Of a stretch of DNA of 64,000 nt, positions 5,134 to 63,969 are shown in pieces. Source of the stretch: Macrosoma leucophasiata (lineage: Eukaryota; Arthropoda; Insecta; Lepidoptera; Hedylidae); assembly GCA_036365455.1 (NCBI GenBank), contig JAWQUS010000002.1:806001-870000 (forward strand). The letters are read 5' to 3'. The stretch's first letter is position 1, and the number at the start of each line of letters is the position of its first letter. Both the position numbers and the translations under genes were made by a program. The notes beneath the pieces are model-generated. The model saw nothing but the letters and a program-made list of their open reading frames with translations. It was not told the DNA's origin and did no database searches.

Positions 5134-5389
5134 TTCTTAGAAATTACTACTATTTATTAATATTATTTTATTTGATTTTTTGCAATAAACAATGCGAGTG
5201 AAAACAATTTTTTGTGGGACTTGAACCCGTGCCCATTGGGATCTCTAGCCCAGCCGCTATCCCAACTGTCCACCGAAGTCCACCGGTAAGTCGGTAGCTC
5301 AGTTAGGAGAGCGGCTGGAACAGATCCCAGTGCACACGGGTTCAAGTCCCGCCTGAAGTAAACTTTTTCTTTCCATTTTTCTTAGAAAT
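5134..5389. mobile_element. tRNA-like inverted-pair element with 11-bp flanking repeats
   Basis: Two tRNA-like sequences lie head to head. The minus-strand one spans about 5217-5280 and the plus-strand one about 5285-5360, leaving almost no loop. The plus copy has an A-box-like TAGCTCAGTTAGG, a B-box GGTTCAAGTCC and a T-arm closed by CGGG/CCCG. It is followed by a T-run ('actttttctttcc') exactly as in the other family members. Direct repeats TTCTTAGAAAT at 5134-5144 and 5379-5389 look like a target-site duplication. It is more diverged than the members at 20.7 and 35-37 kb, so an older insertion. It is not a functional tRNA gene by eye, because the anticodon arm does not fold normally. Confidence 0.7.
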
Positions 5390-8334: not shown

Positions 8335-9614
8335 TAGGTTGGGGAAAAAGTCTTTTCGCATTATAGTATGTATGAACTTGTAATAAAATCTCTTTGGTAG
8401 TATTTGTATCTGGCTGGTTTTGGCATCATTGAAAGTTAACATTTTAAAGAATATAATTCCAAATTCAAATTAGGCAAATGTGTGATTTTCATTTGTTTTT
8501 CGTACTGTCAAGATGAGTGAATCTAAATAAGAAATTCGATACATTTTAAAATTTTACTACAAAAAAGGTAATAATGCAACGCAAGCAGCGAAAAAAATTT
8601 GCGATGTTTATGGACCTAGTGCAGTGTCTGTGAGAGTAGCACAAATTTGGTTTAAGCGTTTTCAATCCGGAAATTTTGATGTCAAAGATGCACCTCGCTC
8701 TGGTCGCCCTATTACGGATAAAATGGATGCCATTTTTGAAAAAGTGGAGCAAGATCGACATATCAGTAGTTACGACGTAGCTGAAGAACTGAGAATTGAT
8801 CACAAAACAGTTTTGGCGCATTTGAAAAAAACTGGGTACAAAATAAAGCTCGATATTTGGGTACCTCACGAGCTCACTGAAAGAAACCTAATGAACCGTG
8901 TACTCATTTGTGATTCTTTATTACGACGTAATGAAACCGAATCATTTTTGAAGAAGCTGATAACTGGTGATGAAAAGTGGATCACGTACGACAAGAACGT
9001 GCGAAAAAGGTCGTGGTCAAAGGCCGGTCAGGCTTCACAGACTGTGGCGAAACCCGGGTTAACTCGCAATAAGGTGATGTTGTGTGTGTGGTGGGATTGG
9101 AAGGGCATTATTCTATATGAGCTATTACCACCAGGCAGGACTATCGATTCTGAACTCTACTGCGAACAACTGATGAGATTAAAGCAAGAAGTTGAGAGAA
9201 AGCGGCCGGAATTGATCAACAGAAGGGGTGTGGTGTTTCATCATGATAACGCTAGACCTCACACATCTATAGCCACTCAGCAAAAATTAAGAGAGTTTGG
9301 CTGGGAGGTGTTAATGCATCCGCCGTATAGTCCTGACCTTGCACCTTCAGATTTCCACCTGTTTCGGTCTCTTCAGAATTCTTTATGCAATGTTAGGTTA
9401 ACATCACGAGAGGACTGCCAAATCCACTTGTCGCGGTATTTTGATGAGAAGTCCCAAAATTTTTATAGCAATGGGATCATGTCCCTACCTACAAGATGGT
9501 AAAAGGTTATCGAACAAAATGGTACATACATACTTTAGTAAAATTTAAATAAACTATATTAAAAAATGTTGTGAATTATCTTAAAAAATGCGAAGAAACT
9601 TTTTCCCCAACCTA
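8335..9614 (+). mobile_element. mariner-family DNA transposon, full length, inactive
   Basis: The 1,276-bp element (8337-9612) has TIRs starting GGTTGGGGAAAAAGT at left and the complementary ACTTTTTCCCCAACC at right (about 28 bp with a few mismatches). It sits between TA dinucleotides (8335-8336 and 9613-9614), the Tc1/mariner target duplication. It carries a nearly complete transposase reading frame in plus orientation, broken by two stops. Length and TA target are as expected for mariner. It lies upstream of the first visible pasilla exon, in sense orientation. Confidence 0.95.
8513..9538 (+). pseudogene. mariner transposase with two premature stops
   Basis: The frame opens with ATG at 8513 and can be followed for 341 codons to TAG at 9536-9538, a normal mariner transposase length. 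Codon 6 (8528-8530) and the codon at 9500-9502 are TAA. Everything between is open, so the longest open stretch runs about 8531-9499. The N-terminal half shows a paired helix-turn-helix DNA-binding region. The catalytic triad is present: Asp about 153 in TGDEKW, Asp about 245 in HHDNARPH, Asp about 280 in PSDFHLF, giving the D,D34D spacing of mariner. There are no frameshifts. Both stops could each arise from CAA by one C-to-T change. The cut-and-paste enzyme would not be made full length. Confidence 0.95.
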
Positions 9615-17705: not shown

Positions 17706-17880
17706 GGTCTTGGTCTTGCAGTCTTGGTCTTGTTCTTGCATTTTTGCAAGACCAAGACCAAGAGCAAGACTGCCTAATTTTAGCAAGACCAAGAACAAGA
17801 CTGACGGTGCAAGATTTGAGCAAGACCACACTGGCAGTGTGGTCTTGCTCATTCTTGCAAAAATGCAAGAACAAGACCAG
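17706..17880. repeat. CAAGACC/GGTCTTG foldback cluster
   Basis: It is built almost entirely from GGTCTTG and its complement CAAGACC. A near-perfect hairpin lies at about 17717-17772 (loop TTTTT). A 13-bp perfect stem with a 3-nt loop lies at about 17820-17848 (gcaagaccacact-ggc-agtgtggtcttgc). A third small hairpin is centred on 'ttgcaaaaatgcaa' at about 17861. Non-coding; element class not recognised. Confidence 0.7.
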
Positions 17881-20714: not shown

Positions 20715-21228
20715 AACGACCATGTTTCAAAGAAAAATGGAAAGAAAAATTTGACTTCAGGCGAGACTCGAACTCGCGGCCTACTGGGAATCTAGTCCAG
20801 CCGCTCTTCCAATTGAGCTACTGAAGTCCTACCCGATTTGTCAAATCTTTCCTTCACATTTATTGCATTGCTTTATGGTAGCAGCAGCGATGCAAGCGAT
20901 GCATACCAACCATGCAAGTTAGGCAACCGATATAATAGACTTTGCAGTTTATTGAATATCGTAAAGAAGTCGCTTTTACCCTTAATAATTGTTTTATATT
21001 ATACCTGCTGCTGCTACCATAAATCAATGCAATAAATGTGAAGGAAAGATTTGACAAATCGGGCAGGACTACAGTAGCTCAATTGGAAGAGCGGCTGGAC
21101 TAGATTCCCAGTAGGCCGCGAGTTCGAGTCTCGCCTGAAGTCAAATTTTTCTTTCCATTTTTCTTTAAAATAAAATATATTTCACAAGCATGTGTTAATG
21201 AGAAATAATATAAAACGACCATGTTTCA
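20715..21228. mobile_element. tRNA-like inverted-pair element with 15-bp target duplication
   Basis: The element (20730-21213) carries a minus-strand tRNA-like sequence (about 20753-20828) and a plus-strand one (about 21067-21143), each with about 110-180 bp of its own upstream unit sequence facing inward. The arms run through 'gcaatgcaataaatgtgaag' and 'ctgctgctgctaccat', with about 117 bp of unpaired spacer. Plus tRNA-like: acceptor arm ACTACAG/CTGAAGT (one mismatch), D arm GCTC/GAGC, T arm GCGAG/CTCGC with TTCGAGT loop, followed by ATTTTT. AACGACCATGTTTCA occurs at 20715-20729 and again at 21214-21228, a 15-bp duplication typical of LINE-type integration. Confidence 0.8.
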
Positions 21229-22524: not shown

Positions 22525-22848
22525 AATATTAGAAATATATTTCACAAGCATGTGTTAATGCGAAATAATATAAAACAATTATTAAGGGTAAAAGCGACTT
22601 CTTTACGATATTTAATAAACTGCAAAGTTTATTATAATATATCGATTGCCTAACTAGCATAGTGTGGCAATAGATGGCGCTACTGCCACCATAAGGCAAT
22701 GCAATAAATATGAAGGAAACATTTGACAAATCGGGCAGGACTTCGGTAGCTCAGTTGGAAGAGCGGCTGGACTAGATTCCCAGTGGCCGCGAGTTCGAGT
22801 CTCGCCTGTATTCAATTTTTTCTTTCCATTTTCTTTAAAAAATATTAG
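22525..22848 (+). mobile_element. tRNA-like element, monomer, with 8-bp target duplication
   Basis: A single 308-bp unit (22533-22840) is flanked by AATATTAG (22525-22532 and 22841-22848). It begins 'aaatatatttcacaagcatg' and has the tRNA-like sequence at about 22739-22812. It ends in a T-rich/short A tail ('attttttctttccattttctttaaaa'). The tRNA-like part is thus close to the 3' end, unlike an ordinary SINE, where it forms the 5' head. The acceptor 3' strand has drifted ('ctgtattc' instead of 'ctgaagtc'). This copy shows what one complete unit is. Confidence 0.75.
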
Positions 22849-26118: not shown

Positions 26119-26170
26119 ACCCTAACTAGCATAGTATGGCAAATGTTTCTTTCCATTTTTCTTCTATCCA
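26119..26170 (+). repeat. Deleted remnant of the tRNA-like unit
   Basis: 'cctaactagcatagtatggca' joins directly to 'tttctttccatttttctt'. Both are unit sequences, but the tRNA-like part between them is missing. Shows the family is older than the recent array. Confidence 0.55.
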
Positions 26171-35201: not shown

Positions 35202-37573
35202 ATGTTAAAGAAATTGTTTGATATTATTTCGCATCAACACATGCTTGTGAAATATATTTTATTTTTAAAGAAAAATGGAAAGAAAAATTTGACTTCAGGC
35301 GAGGCTCGAACTCGCGACCTACTGGGAATCTAGTCCAGCCGCTCTTCCAATTGAGCTACTGAAGCCCTGCCCGATTTGTCAAATCTTTCCTTCACATCTA
35401 TTGCATTGCTTTATGGTAGCAGTAGCGCCATCTATTACCAACTATGCTAGTTAGGCAACCGATATAATAGACTTTTCAGTTTATTGAATATCGTAAAGAA
35501 GTCGCTTTTACCCTTAATAATTGTTTGATATTATTTCGCATCAACACATGCTTGTGAAATATATTTTATTTTTAAAGAAAAATGGAAAGAAAAATTTGAC
35601 TTCAGGCGAGGCTCGAACTCGCGACCTACTGGGAATCTAGTCCAGCCGCTCTTCCAATTGAGCTACTGAAGCCCTGCCCGATTTGTCAAATCTTTCCTTC
35701 ACATCTATTGCATTGCTTTATGGTAGCAGTAGCGCCATCTATTACCAACTATGCTAGTTAGGCAACCGATATAATAGACTTTTCAGTTTATTGAATATCG
35801 TAAAGAAGTCGCTTTTACCCTTAATAATTGTTTGATATTATTTCGCATCAACACATGCTTGTGAAATATATTTTATTTTTAAAGAAAAATGGAAAGAAAA
35901 ATTTGACTTCAGGCGAGGCTCGAACTCGCGACCTACTGGGAATCTAGTCCAGCCGCTCTTCCAATTGAGCTACTGAAGCCCTGCCCGATTTGTCAAATCT
36001 TTCCTTCACATCTATTGCATTGCTTTATGGTAGCAGTAGCGCCATCTATTACCAACTATGCTAGTTAGGCAACCGATATAATAGACTTTTCAGTTTATTG
36101 AATATCGTAAAGAAAAGTCTATTATATCGGTTGCCTAACTAGCATAGTTGGTAATAGATGGCGCTACTGCTACCATAAAGCAATGCAATAGATGTGAAAG
36201 AAAGATTTGACAAATCGGGCAGGGCTTCAGTAGCTCAATTGGAAGAGCGGCTGGACTAGATTCCCAGTAGGTCGCGAGTTCGAGCCTCGCCTGAAGTCAA
36301 ATTTTTCTTTCCATTTTTCTTTAAAAATAAAATATATTTCACAAGCATGTGTTGATGCGAAATAATATCAAACAATTATTAAGGGTAAAAGCGACTTCTT
36401 TACGATATTCAATAAACTGAAAAGTCTATTATATCGGTTGCCTAACTAGCATAGTTGGTAATAGATGGCGCTACTGCTACCATAAAGCAATGCAATAGAT
36501 GTGAAGGAAAGATTTGACAAATCGGGCAGGGCTTCAGTAGCTCAATTGGAAGAGCGGCTGGACTAGATTCCCAGTAGGTCGCGAGTTCGAGCCTCGCCTG
36601 AAGTCAAATTTTTCTTTCCATTTTTCTTTAAAAATAAAATATATTTCACAAGCATGTGTTGATGCGAAATAATATCAAACAATTATTAAGGGTAAAAGCG
36701 ACTTCTTTACGATATTCAATAAACTGAAAAGTCTATTATATCGGTTGCCTAACTAGCATAGTTGGTAATAGATGGCGCTACTGCTACCATAAAGCAATGC
36801 AATAGATGTGAAGGAAAGATTTGACAAATCGGGCAGGGCTTCAGTAGCTCAATTGGAAGAGCGGCTGGACTAGATTCCCAGTAGGTCGCGAGTTCGAGCC
36901 TCGCCTGAAGTCAAATTTTTCTTTCCATTTTTCTTTAAAAATAAAATATATTTCACAAGCATGTGTTGATGCGAAATAATATCAAACAATTATTAAGGGT
37001 AAAAGCGACTTCTTTACGATATTCAATAAACTGAAAAGTCTATTATATCGGTTGCCTAACTAGCATAGTTGGTAATAGATGGCGCTACTGCTACCATAAA
37101 GCAATGCAATAGATGTGAAGGAAAGATTTGACAAATCGGGCAGGGCTTCAGTAGCTCAATTGGAAGAGCGGCTGGACTAGATTCCCAGTGGGTCGCGAGT
37201 TCGAGCCTCGCCTGAAGTCAAATTTTTCTTTCCATTTTTCTTTAAAAATAAAATATATTTCACAAGCATGTGTTGATGCGAAATAATATCAAACAATTAT
37301 TAAGGGTAAAAGCGACTTCTTTACGATATTCAATAAACTGAAAAGTCTATTATATCGGTTGCCTAACTAGCATAGTTGGTAATAGATGGCGCTACTGCTA
37401 CCATAAAGCAATGCAATAGATGTGAAGGAAAGATTTGACAAATCGGGCAGGGCTTCAGTAGCTCAATTGGAAGAGCGGCTGGACTAGATTCCCAGTAGGT
37501 CGCGAGTTCGAGCCTCGCCTGAAGTCAAATTTTTCTTTCCATTTTTCTTTAAAAATAAAATATGTTAAAGAAA
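35202..37573. mobile_element. Palindromic tandem array of tRNA-like units, with 12-bp flanking duplication
   Basis: Eight units of about 307 bp: three on the minus strand (35214-36112) and then, after a switch at about 36113, five on the plus strand (36115-37561). tRNA-like parts: minus 35291-35365, 35598-35672, 35905-35979; plus 36224-36298, 36531-36605, 36838-36912, 37145-37219, 37452-37526. Units are almost identical (for example 'gtaggtcgcgag' versus 'gtgggtcgcgag' in the fourth plus unit), so amplification is recent. The arms close on a 26-base loop ('ttcagtttattgaatatcgt...'). ATGTTAAAGAAA stands at both outer borders (35202-35213 and 37562-37573), as if the 2,348-bp array or its founder had been inserted once. 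Confidence 0.85.
36224..36306 (+). other. tRNA-like sequence with Pol III signals (type unit)
   Basis: Acceptor GCTTCAG/CTGAAGT (G-T then six pairs), TA at 8-9, D arm GCTC-AATTGGAA-GAGC, T arm GCGAG-TTCGAGC-CTCGC, then C and AAATTTTT (T5 at 36302-36306). The A-box TAGCTCAATTGG and B-box AGTTCGAGCCT are close to consensus. The anticodon arm is abnormal: the best stem CTGGA/CCCAG has an A-C mismatch at the loop and one extra base before it, giving loop CTAGATT. So it is tRNA-derived, possibly transcribed by RNA polymerase III, but unlikely to be a working tRNA. Seven other units in this array carry the same sequence. Confidence 0.7.
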
Positions 37574-54825: not shown

Positions 54826-55070
54826 GGCTACGTACCTACCTACTCATAGGTTTGAAGTCGGTGCCAAGCCAATAGTGCGGCCCGCGCGTTAGGACTAATG
54901 TTGTGGTGTTACAGTACCTACTATGTTAAGCTATCAAATACGGCTATTTGAAGCGCACTATTGCTTTGGCACCGACTTCAAACCTATGAGTAGGTAAGTA
55001 CGTAGCCCATATTAAAGTAATTGAGTTTATTTTTCGCTTTTTAGTGTTTTTGTCTATTCCGTTTTGAATT

Positions 55071-58618: not shown

Positions 58619-58804
58619 TGTGGGGTGGTGTGTGTTGGAAGTAAAAGCCAGAAAACTCTTGAAACACTTATTTATTTTTAGCTGCATTTAACACATCCTT
58701 CACTTTCCGCCATCTTCCTATTATATCTCCCTCTTTCATTCACTCATCTCATCTCTCGCTCGCTCATCCTTACGTTCCGTCCCTTGCATCCGACAATTCC
58801 CACA
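58619..58804 (-). repeat. 3' LTR of the gypsy element
   Basis: 186 bp, TGTGGGG...CCCACA on the plus strand. Identical to the 5' LTR by visual comparison. Short for a Ty3/gypsy LTR. Confidence 0.95.
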
Positions 58805-59553
58805 ATTCGGCCTTCCTGCTCCTTGTCTGTCCCCAGACAACTTTCACTCTGACTCTAATTAATAACAAAACTATATAAAACAACATCACACATTCACACC
58901 TTCAATATACAGCTTCAGCTTACTTTAATAAACACATGACATCTTAAGTTAACACATTTTACACGTTTACCTATCAAACTAGTCTTAGGCTATACACCCT
59001 ACAAATCCAACTATAAGCTTTTAGTAACTTACAACTTTAGAATTAAAACTCCTTAGGAAAATTTCAATTACACGCTAATAAGACCAACATAACATTAACA
59101 TCGAACATCTTGAACCTCTCAAGTGAAATTTTACATTTCAAATAACATCTAACAAATCTAGCTAGAAAACAAACCAAAATATTTAAAGTAAAGTGTAAAT
59201 ATTTTAATTAAGTACACAACAACTTACAATATACCTACTAAACTTAATTAATCTTATCTTAAAACAACTCATAGACCAGAAACTAAAATAATGAAAATAG
59301 AGTGCAACTACTTTTAGGTAAGTATACAACTTTAGGAATGCCTACTGCGCTTAAATAGCATCTTTCTTTAAAAAAAACAAACACACAACAGAAACAAAAC
59401 CTTTGAAATACAAATTAACAATTTTGTTTGTTACAACTTTAGGTTACAATTCCCTTCATATGCATAACTGTTACAACAAAGAATAAGTTCAAAATTGCTT
59501 TGACAACTGCTTGCCTGAAAAAAAAAGAAATAGGTATTAAACAAATAAATATG

Positions 59554-62500
59554 TTAATCATCATAGCGGTCACTGTGCTTAGGCCACCTCTTCATATAAT
59601 CAGCAGACGTGGTTGTTTTATTTGGGCCTTCAGTAGAATGATCAACTTTCTCAACTTCATACCTATCCTTCCCCTTGCACTGTGTTACTTCATAAGGGCC
59701 TAAGTATTTGGGACGCAACTTTAAACCAGGGCCATATTGTGTCCTTTTTATAGCAACATGGTCTCCTAAATTATATTGTAAACTCTCTTTTCTCTTTTTG
59801 TTGTAGGTCCTCATATTCTCCTCTTGTATTTTCATAATCTGCTGTCTAGCCTTAAGTCTACTTTCCTCTCTGTCTTCTGAGTACTGTTTGGCATCTTCTT
59901 CTTGTAATACTTCAATAATTCTTAAGTCTTCTGGACATCTCATTTTGGTACCCATGAGTAACTCGAAGGGTGTAGTATTTATACTACGCTGGAATGTACT
60001 GTTCAGAGCTCTCTGAACCTTGCTTACGTAACGGTACCATACCCCATTGTTCTCTATACACAGCTTAGTCAAAGCGGGTATAATGATTCTATGGACTCTT
60101 TCTACTTGGCCGTTGCCACGAGGAACTCCAGTAGTTATCTTAATGTGTTGAATATTCTCTTCTTCACAATATTCCTGAAACTCCCGGCTGGTAAACGCAG
60201 TACCTCTGTCTGAAATTATTCTCCTTGGATTACCAAAGGTCTGTTGATGTATTCGCAATTTATTAAGTGTTTCTGAACTCGAAGTCGTCTTCGTAGGGAA
60301 CAACCACACAAATTTTGTGAAGGAATCTATAATTGTAAGTATATGATTATACTGTTTCTTTGTTTCTGTCAGTGGCCCCAAATGATCTAGATGTAAAGTG
60401 TCAAAAGGTAAGCTCTCTTTATTAATCGGGTTTAGAAACCCTTCTTGTTTTCCCTCCTTTCTGGCTGCTAACAGGCATGGAATACAGCTTCTTAAGAAAT
60501 CATCCAATTTCTTATCAACATCTTTGATATAGTAGTCCGTTGAGAGTAAATCTTTCATTTTGACTTTGCCGAAGTGGCCATTACTATGTACTCTCTTAAT
60601 CGTCTCTCTCTCTAGTGTTTTGGGAACTACTAGCTGCTTCTGGACACCTTTATACAACACATCATCTTCTAACCAAAAATCTTCATAAGAGCTCCTCTTT
60701 AAAATTTCTTTAATGGCTCTCAAAGCGTCATCATCATCTTGTGCCTTTTTAAAATTATTTTTCAGTGTTGTAGTAACTGCGACATAAGGAATTCTGCTCA
60801 GTGCGTCTGTATGCCTCATCTTAATGCCAGCTCTGTGCTCTATTTCAAAATCATATTCGTTCAACATCAACACCCATCGTGCTACTTTTGCAGTTAAGTC
60901 CTTCTTCTTTAGAGTCAACTCAAAAGCTTTGCAGTCTGTAACAATCTTAAAATGAATGCCGTAGAGATAGTGCCTGTATTTCTTTACGCCTTCAACTATA
61001 GCTAGAGCCTCCAGTTCATAACTACAATACCGGCTTTGAGCATCGTTCGTTCTCCTGCTCATGTAATGCACTGGATGCAGGCCTGAGTCAGGATGATACT
61101 GCATTAAAATGGCTGCAAATGCTAAACTGGATGCATCTGTATGCAATTCTGTTCGTAGTTGAGGATTAAATATCTTCAACACTGGTTCGCTCATTAATCT
61201 AGACTTCAGATTCAAAAATGCACTTCTCTCTTCTTTTTCAAATATAAACTCCTTATTCTTCTTTAATAAATCCGTCAAGGGCTTAGCTATCAATGCATAA
61301 TTTTCTATATACTTTCTAAAGTACCCTGTTAATCCAACGAAACTGTGCAATTCTTTTAAAGTTCTTGGTTGAGGATAATCAGCCACTACTTTTATCTTAT
61401 CTGTACTCGGTCTAATTTCTCCATTTTCTATGATGTGACCTAAATATTCTATCTTTTTATGAAGTAAGTTCGCTTTCTTCCAATTGATTGACAATCCAAA
61501 TTTTGATGCTACTTCTAATACTTGCTGAAGTCTTTCTAGTCCTTGTTCCTCAGTTTGAGCTGGAATTACAATATCATCAATAAAAATCATCATACTTCCT
61601 TTAGAAATCAAATCCCTGAAAACAATGCTGACATAACGCATAAAAGCCTTCGGACAAATTGATAAACCAAAAGGTGCACGTAAAAACTCGAATTGCCCAT
61701 GATGTGTCACAAACGATGTGTACCGTATAGAATCTTCACTAATGCTTAAATGGAAAAACCCATTCTTCAAATCAAGAACGCTAAATACCTTCGCTCCCAG
61801 CAATTTATCTATCAAGTCATCTATAATTGGCAGTGGGAATTCGTCCTTCACTATCTTTGCATTCAGTCGCCTGTAATCTACACACACTCTAACTGACCCA
61901 TCCTTTTTACGAACCAACACTACTGGGCTTGAATAATCAGAATAGCTTACCCGTATAATTCCGTCTCGTAACCACTCTTCAACCTGATTCTCTACCAGCT
62001 GTTGTTCTGCCAGTGCCAGCCGTCGAGGTCGCTGCGCCACAGGTACGTCATCTTTCAGTACAATCTTAAGCTCCATTGGCACCTCATGAGTCTTCATCGG
62101 CTGGTAACCTTCTATACGTCTTATCACCTCTTCTTTAACATCCTGGTTGCGAACATGATCTAAAAAAACATTTACACACCCCGTAAAACAATCAACCCTA
62201 CCTAACCAGTCACAGTTGTCAGGTAAAAACCTTATAGATCCATCCCTAAATAAAACAGTGCATAATTTAAGGAAATCGCTACCCAAAATTGCCTCATACG
62301 GCATTGCTTCAACAGGTACTAAGTGAAAAACAACATTTTCATACAACTTGCAGTTAATTTCGATATTTAAATGTACTTTGCCAAGTGAAAAGACTTTAGT
62401 TTGTCCGAGACCGGTTAAAACAATCGGATCATTACACAAAACATTTTTATTTCGGAAACTACTTTGAAAAGCTATCATTGAAAGTAAATTTACCTCTGAT

Positions 62501-63591
62501 CCAGTGTCAACTAAAGCCTTAATCGACTTATCACAAATCTTAATTGATATTAAATTATTCTCACAACTATCTTGACATATAACCTCACTTTGTACACTTG
62601 ACACATTACTGTCACCTGTCAAATCCGCGTTTCGTTCCTGCTCCAACGTTGTCACGCACAAAGTCTCTGATGACACCAACATTTTATTATTTTCACACCG
62701 CGTTTCGTTCGTCGAATAATCTTGAGACGGCGTCACGGTTGCCTCGTCTTTACCACGTGACCCGAACATTGCCGACCGGGGCCGAACCGCACCCGAACTC
62801 TTATCACCGCCGGATCCGCTCGTATTCACAACAACTTGTTTCTGAGTACAATGGCGACTTATATGCCCGTAGGAATTACACTTGAAGCATTTTACACCAT
62901 TTGGACACGCTGATGCCACATGACTCCCTTCTCCACAATTATAGCACCGTCCTTGACCCGTACTCCGCCTGGAACCGCCACTTTGATATGTAGCATTCTG
63001 TGCTTGTTTTGGTTTAGAATGTTGCTTCGTCTTATCATTCTTAACTTTTTCGTAAATCAGTATCTTGTCTTTCAAGGCCGCGTACGTCGTAACACCATAC
63101 AACATGATTTTATATGGGTCGTCGTCTTTCTCGATCCCATCGATGATGTATTGTATTGCTACATAATCGGGAAACTTGGCGCGCTTGCCCAATTCCTTCA
63201 TGATGAGCATATATTGGGTATATGTTTCGTCTTTGCGTTTTCGCCGTGTCGACATAATCTCATGCATTTCTTTTGCGTTAATTATGTCAGGGAATTCTCT
63301 AAGAAGGGCGGCTTTCAAATCTTCGTATGTCTTAAATGTTTTTTCAGACCTGAGCCATAGTTCTGCAGTCCCGGTGAGGGATCTACGTGCCACTATTAAT
63401 TTTTGTGTGGTACTCCACTGGAAAATATCGGCGTTGTCGTCGATGTCCTGCGCCCACTTCACCGAGGAATATGTTTTATCATCCCCGCTGAACTTCGCTA
63501 TGACCCCATCCAAACAAAACTTGGCCGCCATGCCATCCATACCATGAAGCATGCTGCCACTTCCACTTCTATCGTCTTTTTCTAAAGCCAT
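59554..63591 (-). CDS. Gag-Pol polyprotein of Ty3/gypsy retrotransposon
   Basis: 1,345 codons in one frame from ATG at 63591, with no frameshift between gag and pol. Domain order: Gag about 30-185; two CCHC zinc knuckles (C216/C219/H224/C229 and C235/C238/H243/C248); aspartic protease with DTGS at 362-365; reverse transcriptase with LDLKNG (Asp607) and FIDD (Asp672-673); RNase H with Asp819, Glu859, Asp886, Asp929; integrase zinc finger H1002/H1006/C1036/C1039 and core Asp1069, Asp1128, Glu1164 (D,D35E). All catalytic residues expected for the family are present. The product would assemble particles, copy the RNA and integrate it. Order RT-RNaseH-IN places it in Ty3/gypsy rather than copia. 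No chromodomain or envelope seen. Confidence 0.95.
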   Translation of the reverse strand: MALEKDDRSGSGSMLHGMDGMAAKFCLDGVIAKFSGDDKTYSSVKWAQDIDDNADIFQWSTTQKLIVARRSLTGTAELWLRSEKTFKTYEDLKAALLREFPDIINAKEMHEIMSTRRKRKDETYTQYMLIMKELGKRAKFPDYVAIQYIIDGIEKDDDPYKIMLYGVTTYAALKDKILIYEKVKNDKTKQHSKPKQAQNATYQSGGSRRSTGQGRCYNCGEGSHVASACPNGVKCFKCNSYGHISRHCTQKQVVVNTSGSGGDKSSGAVRPRSAMFGSRGKDEATVTPSQDYSTNETRCENNKMLVSSETLCVTTLEQERNADLTGDSNVSSVQSEVICQDSCENNLISIKICDKSIKALVDTGSEVNLLSMIAFQSSFRNKNVLCNDPIVLTGLGQTKVFSLGKVHLNIEINCKLYENVVFHLVPVEAMPYEAILGSDFLKLCTVLFRDGSIRFLPDNCDWLGRVDCFTGCVNVFLDHVRNQDVKEEVIRRIEGYQPMKTHEVPMELKIVLKDDVPVAQRPRRLALAEQQLVENQVEEWLRDGIIRVSYSDYSSPVVLVRKKDGSVRVCVDYRRLNAKIVKDEFPLPIIDDLIDKLLGAKVFSVLDLKNGFFHLSISEDSIRYTSFVTHHGQFEFLRAPFGLSICPKAFMRYVSIVFRDLISKGSMMIFIDDIVIPAQTEEQGLERLQQVLEVASKFGLSINWKKANLLHKKIEYLGHIIENGEIRPSTDKIKVVADYPQPRTLKELHSFVGLTGYFRKYIENYALIAKPLTDLLKKNKEFIFEKEERSAFLNLKSRLMSEPVLKIFNPQLRTELHTDASSLAFAAILMQYHPDSGLHPVHYMSRRTNDAQSRYCSYELEALAIVEGVKKYRHYLYGIHFKIVTDCKAFELTLKKKDLTAKVARWVLMLNEYDFEIEHRAGIKMRHTDALSRIPYVAVTTTLKNNFKKAQDDDDALRAIKEILKRSSYEDFWLEDDVLYKGVQKQLVVPKTLERETIKRVHSNGHFGKVKMKDLLSTDYYIKDVDKKLDDFLRSCIPCLLAARKEGKQEGFLNPINKESLPFDTLHLDHLGPLTETKKQYNHILTIIDSFTKFVWLFPTKTTSSSETLNKLRIHQQTFGNPRRIISDRGTAFTSREFQEYCEEENIQHIKITTGVPRGNGQVERVHRIIIPALTKLCIENNGVWYRYVSKVQRALNSTFQRSINTTPFELLMGTKMRCPEDLRIIEVLQEEDAKQYSEDREESRLKARQQIMKIQEENMRTYNKKRKESLQYNLGDHVAIKRTQYGPGLKLRPKYLGPYEVTQCKGKDRYEVEKVDHSTEGPNKTTTSADYMKRWPKHSDRYDD

Positions 63592-63761
63592 CCTTGATTC
63601 TGTCGTTTAATAATCGTCTTATGGTCGTCTTATAATCCCTTTTCACCTTGATTTTCGTCTTATTTTCGTCTTATCGTCGTCCTATCTTCACAACATGCCG
63701 CCATCGGCGCACACGTCTCGTCGTAGTAATATTTCGCCACACTTTTTACTTCACAAACACC

Positions 63762-63779
63762 ATCCCGGACGAGCCCCCA
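63762..63779 (-). other. Primer-binding site, tRNA-Pro type
   Basis: The minus strand reads TGGGGGCTCGTCCGGGAT, complementary to a tRNA-Pro 3' end including CCA. It begins four bases inside the 5' LTR border. Confidence 0.85.
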
Positions 63780-63783
63780 AAGT

Positions 63784-63969
63784 TGTGGGGTGGTGTGTGT
63801 TGGAAGTAAAAGCCAGAAAACTCTTGAAACACTTATTTATTTTTAGCTGCATTTAACACATCCTTCACTTTCCGCCATCTTCCTATTATATCTCCCTCTT
63901 TCATTCACTCATCTCATCTCTCGCTCGCTCATCCTTACGTTCCGTCCCTTGCATCCGACAATTCCCACA
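63784..63969 (-). repeat. 5' LTR of the gypsy element
   Basis: 186 bp, identical by eye to 58619-58804. Beyond it only 31 bases of the window remain. Confidence 0.95.

Follow-up and report, generated by a model that had tools for sequence, protein, structure and literature searches.

Within the window, by which we mean the whole 64,000-nucleotide stretch of the Macrosoma leucophasiata genome analysed here (contig JAWQUS010000002.1, positions 806,001 to 870,000), lies an array of 7.7 near-identical tRNA-like units of 307 bp, arranged as a minus arm and a plus arm that meet head to head (Table 1). An earlier note on this DNA, made from the sequence alone, had described near-identical units of ~307 bp, three on the minus strand and then five on the plus strand, and both the unit alignment and the folds found by ARAGORN bear this out. 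Its count of eight units is right for the tRNA-like folds, of which there are eight, but the eighth unit is cut at position 222, which brings the array to 7.7 units. The 26-base loop that had been placed between the arms does not exist: the arms abut, with a 3-nt overlap at their junction, and the 20 bases that separate the perfect arms belong to the unit itself. Two single-base differences (36199 and 37190) are all that separate the units in about 2.35 kb, and a third mismatch, at 37564, lies already within the right-hand duplication rather than in a unit. No frame of at least 120 aa overlaps 35202-37573, and thus the array contains no ORF for a reverse transcriptase (RT) and GIY-YIG endonuclease and would be non-autonomous at most.

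The 12-mer ATGTTAAAGAAA stands at both outer borders of the array in exact copies, as the earlier note had it, and this is beyond chance. Among 1806 mismatched flank pairings of the family, only one shared 12 or more letters, and for 4000 random position pairs in the window the longest common word was of 9 letters once, of 13 letters once and otherwise of at most 8.

Table 1. Members of the 307-bp family in the window and their parts, with window positions; unit positions are numbered 1-307
Feature	Position	Strand	Basis
Left target-site duplication copy ATGTTAAAGAAA, 12 nt	35202..35213	.	border comparison and mismatched-flank control
Minus arm of 2.9 units, ending on the unit at 264 on the outside (site B) and at 285 on the inside	35214..36114	-	unit alignment
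Plus arm of 4.7 units, ending on the unit at 1 on the inside and at 222 on the outside (site A)	36112..37561	+	unit alignment
Right target-site duplication copy ATGTTAAAGAAA	37562..37573	.	border comparison
Reference 307-bp unit, positions 1-307	36419..36725	+	
A-to-B start-site segment of reference unit, counterpart of the PLE 'tail'	36640..36682	+	
tRNA-like fold of reference unit	36530..36606	+	ARAGORN; Rfam RF00005
Sister tRNA-like folds	35290-35366, 35597-35673, 35904-35980	-	ARAGORN; Rfam RF00005
Sister tRNA-like folds	36223-36299, 36837-36913, 37144-37220, 37451-37527	+	ARAGORN; Rfam RF00005
tRNA-like part within long extra stem (GAAGGAAAGATTTGAC / GTCAAATTTTTCTTTC)	36500..36620	+	
T5 run directly 3' of tRNA-like part, Pol III terminator-like	36609..36613	+	
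Left duplication of second insertion AACGACCATGTTTCA	20715..20729	.	
Second insertion: minus arm ends at A (210), plus arm ends at B (260)	20730..21213	.	
Right duplication of second insertion	21214..21228	.	
Third insertion, one orientation only, roughly a full turn across unit joint	22533..22840	+	

The tRNA-like fold claimed for each unit was recovered by ARAGORN in all eight cases and scores 47-49 bits each time under the covariance model Rfam RF00005, a result that the default Rfam filters miss. The tRNA-like part takes up unit positions ~111-188, shortly ahead of the 3' ends A and B that are described below, and contains a putative A box TAGCTCAATTGG and B box GTTCGAGCC, both picked out by eye against the consensus. 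The predicted fold of 36500-36625 reaches -50.9 kcal/mol (z -4.96); the segment between A and B has by itself an unremarkable fold (z -0.53 and -1.12). The run of five T's next to the tRNA-like part reads TTTTTC in 45 of 50 loci and sits 20-70 nt ahead of sites A and B. Since a Pol III transcript should terminate at this run, before either site, the template of the element is probably not a Pol III RNA begun at the tRNA-like part. Our guess is that the tRNA-like part is an RNA structure (or promoter) set beside the start site, and it may serve as a structure that the enzyme recognises, be a relic, or aid in processing. A hammerhead or other ribozyme in the unit was also considered and was rejected on an Rfam scan and the missing core pattern: up to E 10, positions 36300-37100 yielded nothing but the tRNA and a chance-level match to RAGATH-7 (13.8 bits, cut-off 111.8), and none of the 28 matches to the core CTGANGA in the window falls within the array or its two window relatives.

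Copies of the unit in the window and across the genome

Two further insertions of the unit lie in the window. The inverted pair that had been noticed at 20715-21228 is indeed one, and it is bordered by a duplication of 15 nt (12-15 if AAC is counted as element). The third insertion is flanked by an 8-nt repeat, AATATTAG (22525-22532 and 22841-22848), which is weak and was left out of the duplication counts. An older head-to-head tRNA-like pair at 5214-5384, 72% alike, has a plus side that ends in the same CTTTTTCTTTCCATTTTTCTT and is perhaps an ancient relative of the family; no target duplication was found around it. At 26121-26163 there is a short unit remnant, in which a piece like positions 23-37 (by eye) is followed by one like positions 187-210 that ends near A. 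The window also houses other residents: an LTR retrotransposon (58619-63969) with 186-bp ends that are 100% identical and an uninterrupted frame of 1350 aa, which is probably a recent insertion; a mariner-type transposase frame of 323 aa with no stops (8531-9502); a LINE frame with a relative in the moth Phthorimaea (58% identity over 51% of the query, among 120 relatives listed); and two hairpins (54851-54982 and 17711-17772) that score below the cut-off as miRNA precursors on both strands and are perhaps MITE-like palindromes.

To follow the family beyond the window we scanned the whole assembly, which comprises 616 Mb in 61 contigs. The unit query gave 115 matches, grouped into 40 loci (40 scored of 155 candidates), and from this query and a second one with the tail we put the candidate copies genome-wide at 155-190. 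A query with the first 111 bases of the unit found no match and is uninformative, as the same bases do match with the unit query; an exact-pattern search of viral contigs and genome contigs returned 0 matches. Judged by aligned length divided by 307, 39 of 50 loci hold 1-3 units, six hold more and five less, and divergence from the family majority runs from 0.7 to 16% per locus. The locus L014 (C19:4296778-4302949) is a larger palindromic array of the same unit, with 20.6 units. Palindromic arrays are hard to assemble, but that the one in the window is an artefact of assembly seems scarcely credible for an assembly of so few contigs in which independent palindromic arrays (L014, L009) and short inverted insertions with duplications occur elsewhere.

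Borders were examined for 43 insertions, namely 39 of the 40 loci (one of which, L030, holds two) and the three in the window, whose array is itself locus number forty. A target duplication of 12-15 nt accompanies 28 of the 43 (12 nt in 11 cases, 13 nt in 11, 14 nt in three and 15 nt in three), and the remaining 15 have none of 12 nt or longer. A narrow border search found an exact repeat of 12-15 nt in 22 insertions, to be read against the control of one in 1806 given above. It overlooked the duplication of the window array because the local alignment overran the arm end; direct border comparison and a wide search found it. The wide search added six insertions (W35, L012, L018, L026, L029 and L044), with a poor control in which a word of at least 12 letters appeared in 78 of 1804 pairings, mostly, we think, words internal to the unit; such words at L024 and L047 were removed by eye. 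Two duplications of the family, at L014 (a GTAT repeat) and L074 (a CTA repeat), are simple sequence, and shorter border words were not counted as duplications (10 nt at the locus edge of L030a, and 9, 10 and 7 nt at L054, L062 and L073). The 28 duplications are 73.8% A+T, as compared to 61.9% in the window.

A search with joined flanks turned up paralogous empty sites for five of 33 insertions (L010, L015, L018, L041 and L074), after a self-match at L028 had been removed. For L010, L015, L018 and L074 at least one paralogue has the duplicated word once and exactly; at L041 the empty site differs in two of the 14 letters of the word, and the alignment at L015 has a 30-nt gap some 30 nt to the left of it. 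As L010 is an array of 5.8 units and L015, L041 and L074 are head to head, it follows that multi-unit and inverted molecules were inserted as such. The earlier label of a satellite does not suit a family whose copies are dispersed and have duplications and empty sites.

Two end positions, A and B

Head-to-head copies account for 20 of the 28 insertions with a duplication and single-oriented ones for the other eight. With end positions read from 45-nt anchored alignments, which are accurate to a few bases, the outer end of one arm lies in all 20 head-to-head copies at unit position 260-271 (site B, median 263.5) and that of the other at 210-226 in 16 (site A), the other four being at 176, 188, 188 and 204 (median of the 20, 221). 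On the circular unit the resultant length is 0.961 for A, 0.999 for B and 0.118 for the inner ends, although sorting each pair of ends into a lower and a higher itself concentrates both somewhat, and the inner-end value was computed with 275 for the plus arm of the window array, where the true position is 1. In 13 of the 20 it is the left-hand end that lies at B. Single-oriented copies with a duplication end at B in six of eight cases (263-267) and at A in two (219 and 222).

Copies without a duplication were placed by local alignment. Five of the seven with a single orientation end at 261-267, the exceptions being L042 (288) and the copy at 22.5 kb in the window (229). In the eight inverted ones the outer ends are less orderly (L011 256/155, L013 257/271, L016 304/265, L021 267/267, L023 305/228, L030a 275/231, L034 246/263 and L045 82/264). 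The tail query brought in nine further loci, of which eight were analysed and C7:16265341 was left out; five of the eight have a duplication of 12-17 nt, all five are inverted, and four of these have both an A and a B end (the B-side end of L071 is at 235, and the right duplication copy of L076 is at 1701). The B arm of L054, which has a border repeat of 9 nt only, consists of just 38 bases between A and B, and that of L070 of 47 bases, as if synthesis begun at B had halted at the strand begun at A on the same RNA.

Fixed starts combined with free stops point to reverse transcription. Had circular or concatemeric extrachromosomal DNA integrated, or a satellite expanded, that step would not be needed, and units that are circularly permuted and stand in tandem arrays could be accounted for; the ends would then be expected anywhere on the circle, whereas in the 20 insertions only the inner ends scatter and the outer ones do not, and there are in addition duplications of 12-15 nt and empty sites, all of which makes such an origin very improbable. 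Somewhat less improbable, though still a poor prospect, is the twin priming of a tRNA SINE by LINE machinery, in which both target strands would serve a LINE enzyme as primers, at arbitrary sites, on a multimeric SINE RNA. Inverted structures and duplications of 12-15 nt are also compatible with LINEs, frames of a LINE-type RT are present in the window, and at 20.7 kb one arm ends at 251 and the other starts at 262, a distance of 11 nt that twin priming on a multimer would allow. Yet the second start should scatter under twin priming and both are fixed in the 20 inverted insertions with a duplication, no poly(A) or simple-repeat tail was seen in the insertion ends inspected, and a passage of PMC12016303 puts twin priming in human data at 0.02% for germline Alu and at 18-22% for L1, where the family has 20 inverted insertions of 28. 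The LINE machinery that the earlier note named for target duplications of this size gives way, in our reading, to that of Penelope-like elements (PLEs). Their signature is a fixed outer end on each strand, the two lying ~42 nt apart, and the resident PLEs of this genome show it as well.

Resident Penelope-like elements and the origin of the array

The biochemical precedent comes from the PLE PAc of Anolis. According to passages of PMC11167929, its protein, predicted to be a dimer, cleaves the two target strands in vitro and extends each of them; it begins at two adjacent internal start sites on the RNA, the tail of genomic copies corresponds to the RNA from one of these sites to the other, and PLE loci have a tandem layout. 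PLEs of the host itself were sought with a generic PLE-type query, and 150 places were scored of 1436 candidates. Frames of 818-854 aa occur at 20 of the 150, with a tandem spacing of 2636 or 2611 bp in some, and 21 neighbouring pairs on opposite strands (counted by eye) all have the minus copy on the left and the plus copy on the right, as in the array of the window. One palindromic PLE array, at C30:17485509-17501588, has four minus and then three plus units at a spacing of 2636 bp, six of the seven in 848-aa frames. In the 837-aa frame of L080 Pfam confirms the RT domain alone, the GIY-YIG-like end being recognised by eye; a Pfam search for GIY-YIG found no PLE, its one match being SLX1-like by eye. 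An Rfam search up to E 10 of the PLE stretch L080 matched no hammerhead, so the hammerhead may not be a general feature of PLEs in this genome.

We read ten PLE end pairs, chosen as neighbouring minus and plus places. In the 848-aa family all eight pairs have a duplication of 12-16 nt and one A and one B end each (in the pair L091/L092 the A end is followed by a run of A), and in the other family (L081/L082 and L083/L084) A and B ends and a duplication were read by eye. The B end is GTTTAAAACAATT in the 848-aa family, ATATAAAACAATT in the majority of the 307-bp family and ATATCAAACAATT in the window array; the first two have the motif TAAAACAATTA in common, from which the B site of the window array, TCAAACAATTA, is one base off. 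A 20-mer from the PLE B end fits the majority-letter unit best exactly at B, with 15 of 20 letters against 12 for the runner-up, although the motif is short and 15 of 20 is attained somewhere in 27 of 2000 shuffles of the unit's letters. No further convincing homology between unit and PLE was found in a comparison confined to the surroundings of the start sites.

Two fixed starts ~42 nt apart, one per strand, as published for PLEs, lead us to a PLE-type reading, and the same anatomy in the PLEs of the host, together with the B motif that their main family shares with the majority of the 307-bp family, leads us to an ORF-less element of that type. We therefore regard the array in the window as the likely insertion of a small ORF-less retroelement that uses a PLE-type mechanism, and put the probability of this, as judged from genome sequence, at roughly 0.85. 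The best reading is thus that it is not a LINE product, an ordinary SINE, a hammerhead retrozyme or a satellite. For such an insertion autonomous PLEs of the host would provide the PLE protein in trans, and this protein would cut the two target strands about 12-13 nt apart. Reverse transcription would begin at A (~221) on one strand and at B (~264) on the other, and if the RNA template is multimeric or circular, each strand would run through several 307-nt units before it stops. A short microhomology would then serve to join the two cDNAs head to head, and once the stagger is filled in the target duplication would be left.

When the units of an array are compared with one another, minority letters number 0 of 1772 at L010, 5 of 6354 at L014 and 5 of 1069 at L009, and in less uniform arrays 38 of 984 (L012), 39 of 583 (L013) and 172 of 872 (L021); inserts of more than 600 bp have 417 in 19580 when pooled, a figure that includes the effects of age and misalignment. 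The window array was scored in this count with 23 differing letters where direct comparison gives two, we think by alignment beyond the arm ends. Near-uniform units could possibly come from a circular template, a uniform tandem donor or later homogenisation. The last of these enters into a different history, in which an inverted founder of the PLE type (as at 20715-21228) was inserted and its arms grew later by unequal exchange or replication slippage. Such growth would keep the PLE mechanism for the founder, and so overlaps with our main explanation, and the near-identity of units at L014, L010, L009 and the window array fits local homogenisation. We consider it unlikely nonetheless, given that the arms, which measure 0.9 and 1.45 kb in the window and 2.6 and 3.7 kb at L014, are of similar magnitude to a single PLE unit (2.6 kb), that the PLEs of the host make the same multi-unit arrays, and that variants specific to the L014 array and common to both of its arms (nine positions) fit the copying of one template. 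The inverted concatemeric insertion with a target duplication that the earlier note proposed is upheld, and of the two histories that it offered, a single event for the whole array is in our estimate rather probable.

A more specific scenario, which we consider less likely than not, is that the element is SINE-like, has a Pol III promoter of the tRNA type and parasitises the reverse transcriptase of PLEs instead of that of LINEs. The tRNA-like hairpin next to the start site would in that event be the recognition structure, and homogeneous arrays would derive from repeated rounds of copying on a circular RNA made without a hammerhead, for example by tRNA-type processing and ligation.

With its two fixed start sites, a small tandem element without an ORF here gives a pointer to the machinery behind it, and the twenty natural inverted insertions mirror the in vitro result with one PLE in which both target strands are extended at two internal sites. 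Palindromic tRNA-like arrays in genome assemblies can thus be read as PLE products and not as satellites, and the 307-bp unit offers a compact, naturally occurring template on which the requirements of a PLE enzyme can be tested.

Comparison with known systems

Lepidopteran tRNA SINEs (HaSE1/2, PxSE and Metulj) resemble the 307-bp element, as far as passages of PMC3272025, PMC8010984 and PMC4016481 describe them, in a tRNA-like part with A and B boxes, a length of ~300 bp and target duplications. By the same descriptions they are unlike it in that here the tRNA part stands at the 3' start site, no simple-repeat tail was seen in the ends inspected, multimers are inverted and there are two starts. 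HaSE2 was considered because of its length (306 bp in the monarch member) and rejected on its described anatomy, which differs from that of the 307-bp element. A reading as a SINE is likewise not retained, as the tRNA-like part lies beside the 3' start site and does not form the 5' head. Helenus, a TRIM with tRNA-like LTRs, also has a tRNA-like part inside a repeated end, but according to passages of PMC10886601 it differs in its LTR mechanism, its 4-5-bp duplications and its PBS and PPT.

With the non-LTR retrozymes of animals the family has in common, from passages of PMC7229834, tandem monomers of ~300 bp without an ORF, duplications of more than 4 bp when present and no LTR signals. The unit differs in having no type I hammerhead, and for that reason we do not file the family as a retrozyme. 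For the retrozyme repeats themselves, a passage in the review PMC7761336 states that no motif hints at an autonomous partner machinery.

The closest likeness is to the PLEs. Penelope of Adineta vaga, as portrayed in passages of PMC3846280, has pLTRs that are inverted head to head and target duplications of 8-10 bp, and one of its ends may bear a 31-bp tail; with it and with PAc the 307-bp element has in common, on the same partial basis (PMC3846280, PMC11167929), tandem or partial-tandem units, inverted ends, short duplications, two start sites and AT-rich targets. The optional tail at one end of PLEs is ~30-40 nt long in these sources, and the A-B segment of the 307-bp unit ~42 nt. Unlike PLEs, the unit is only 307 bp long and has a tRNA-like fold and neither an RT-endonuclease ORF nor, as far as was found, a hammerhead. 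Short nonautonomous Penelope elements exist in heliconiine butterflies, as mentioned in a passage of PMC6685494, and resemble the 307-bp element as lepidopteran non-autonomous PLEs, a likeness by name only. Full-text literature searches, whose coverage leaves out most subscription papers, showed among the papers listed no title that describes an ORF-less PLE bearing a tRNA.
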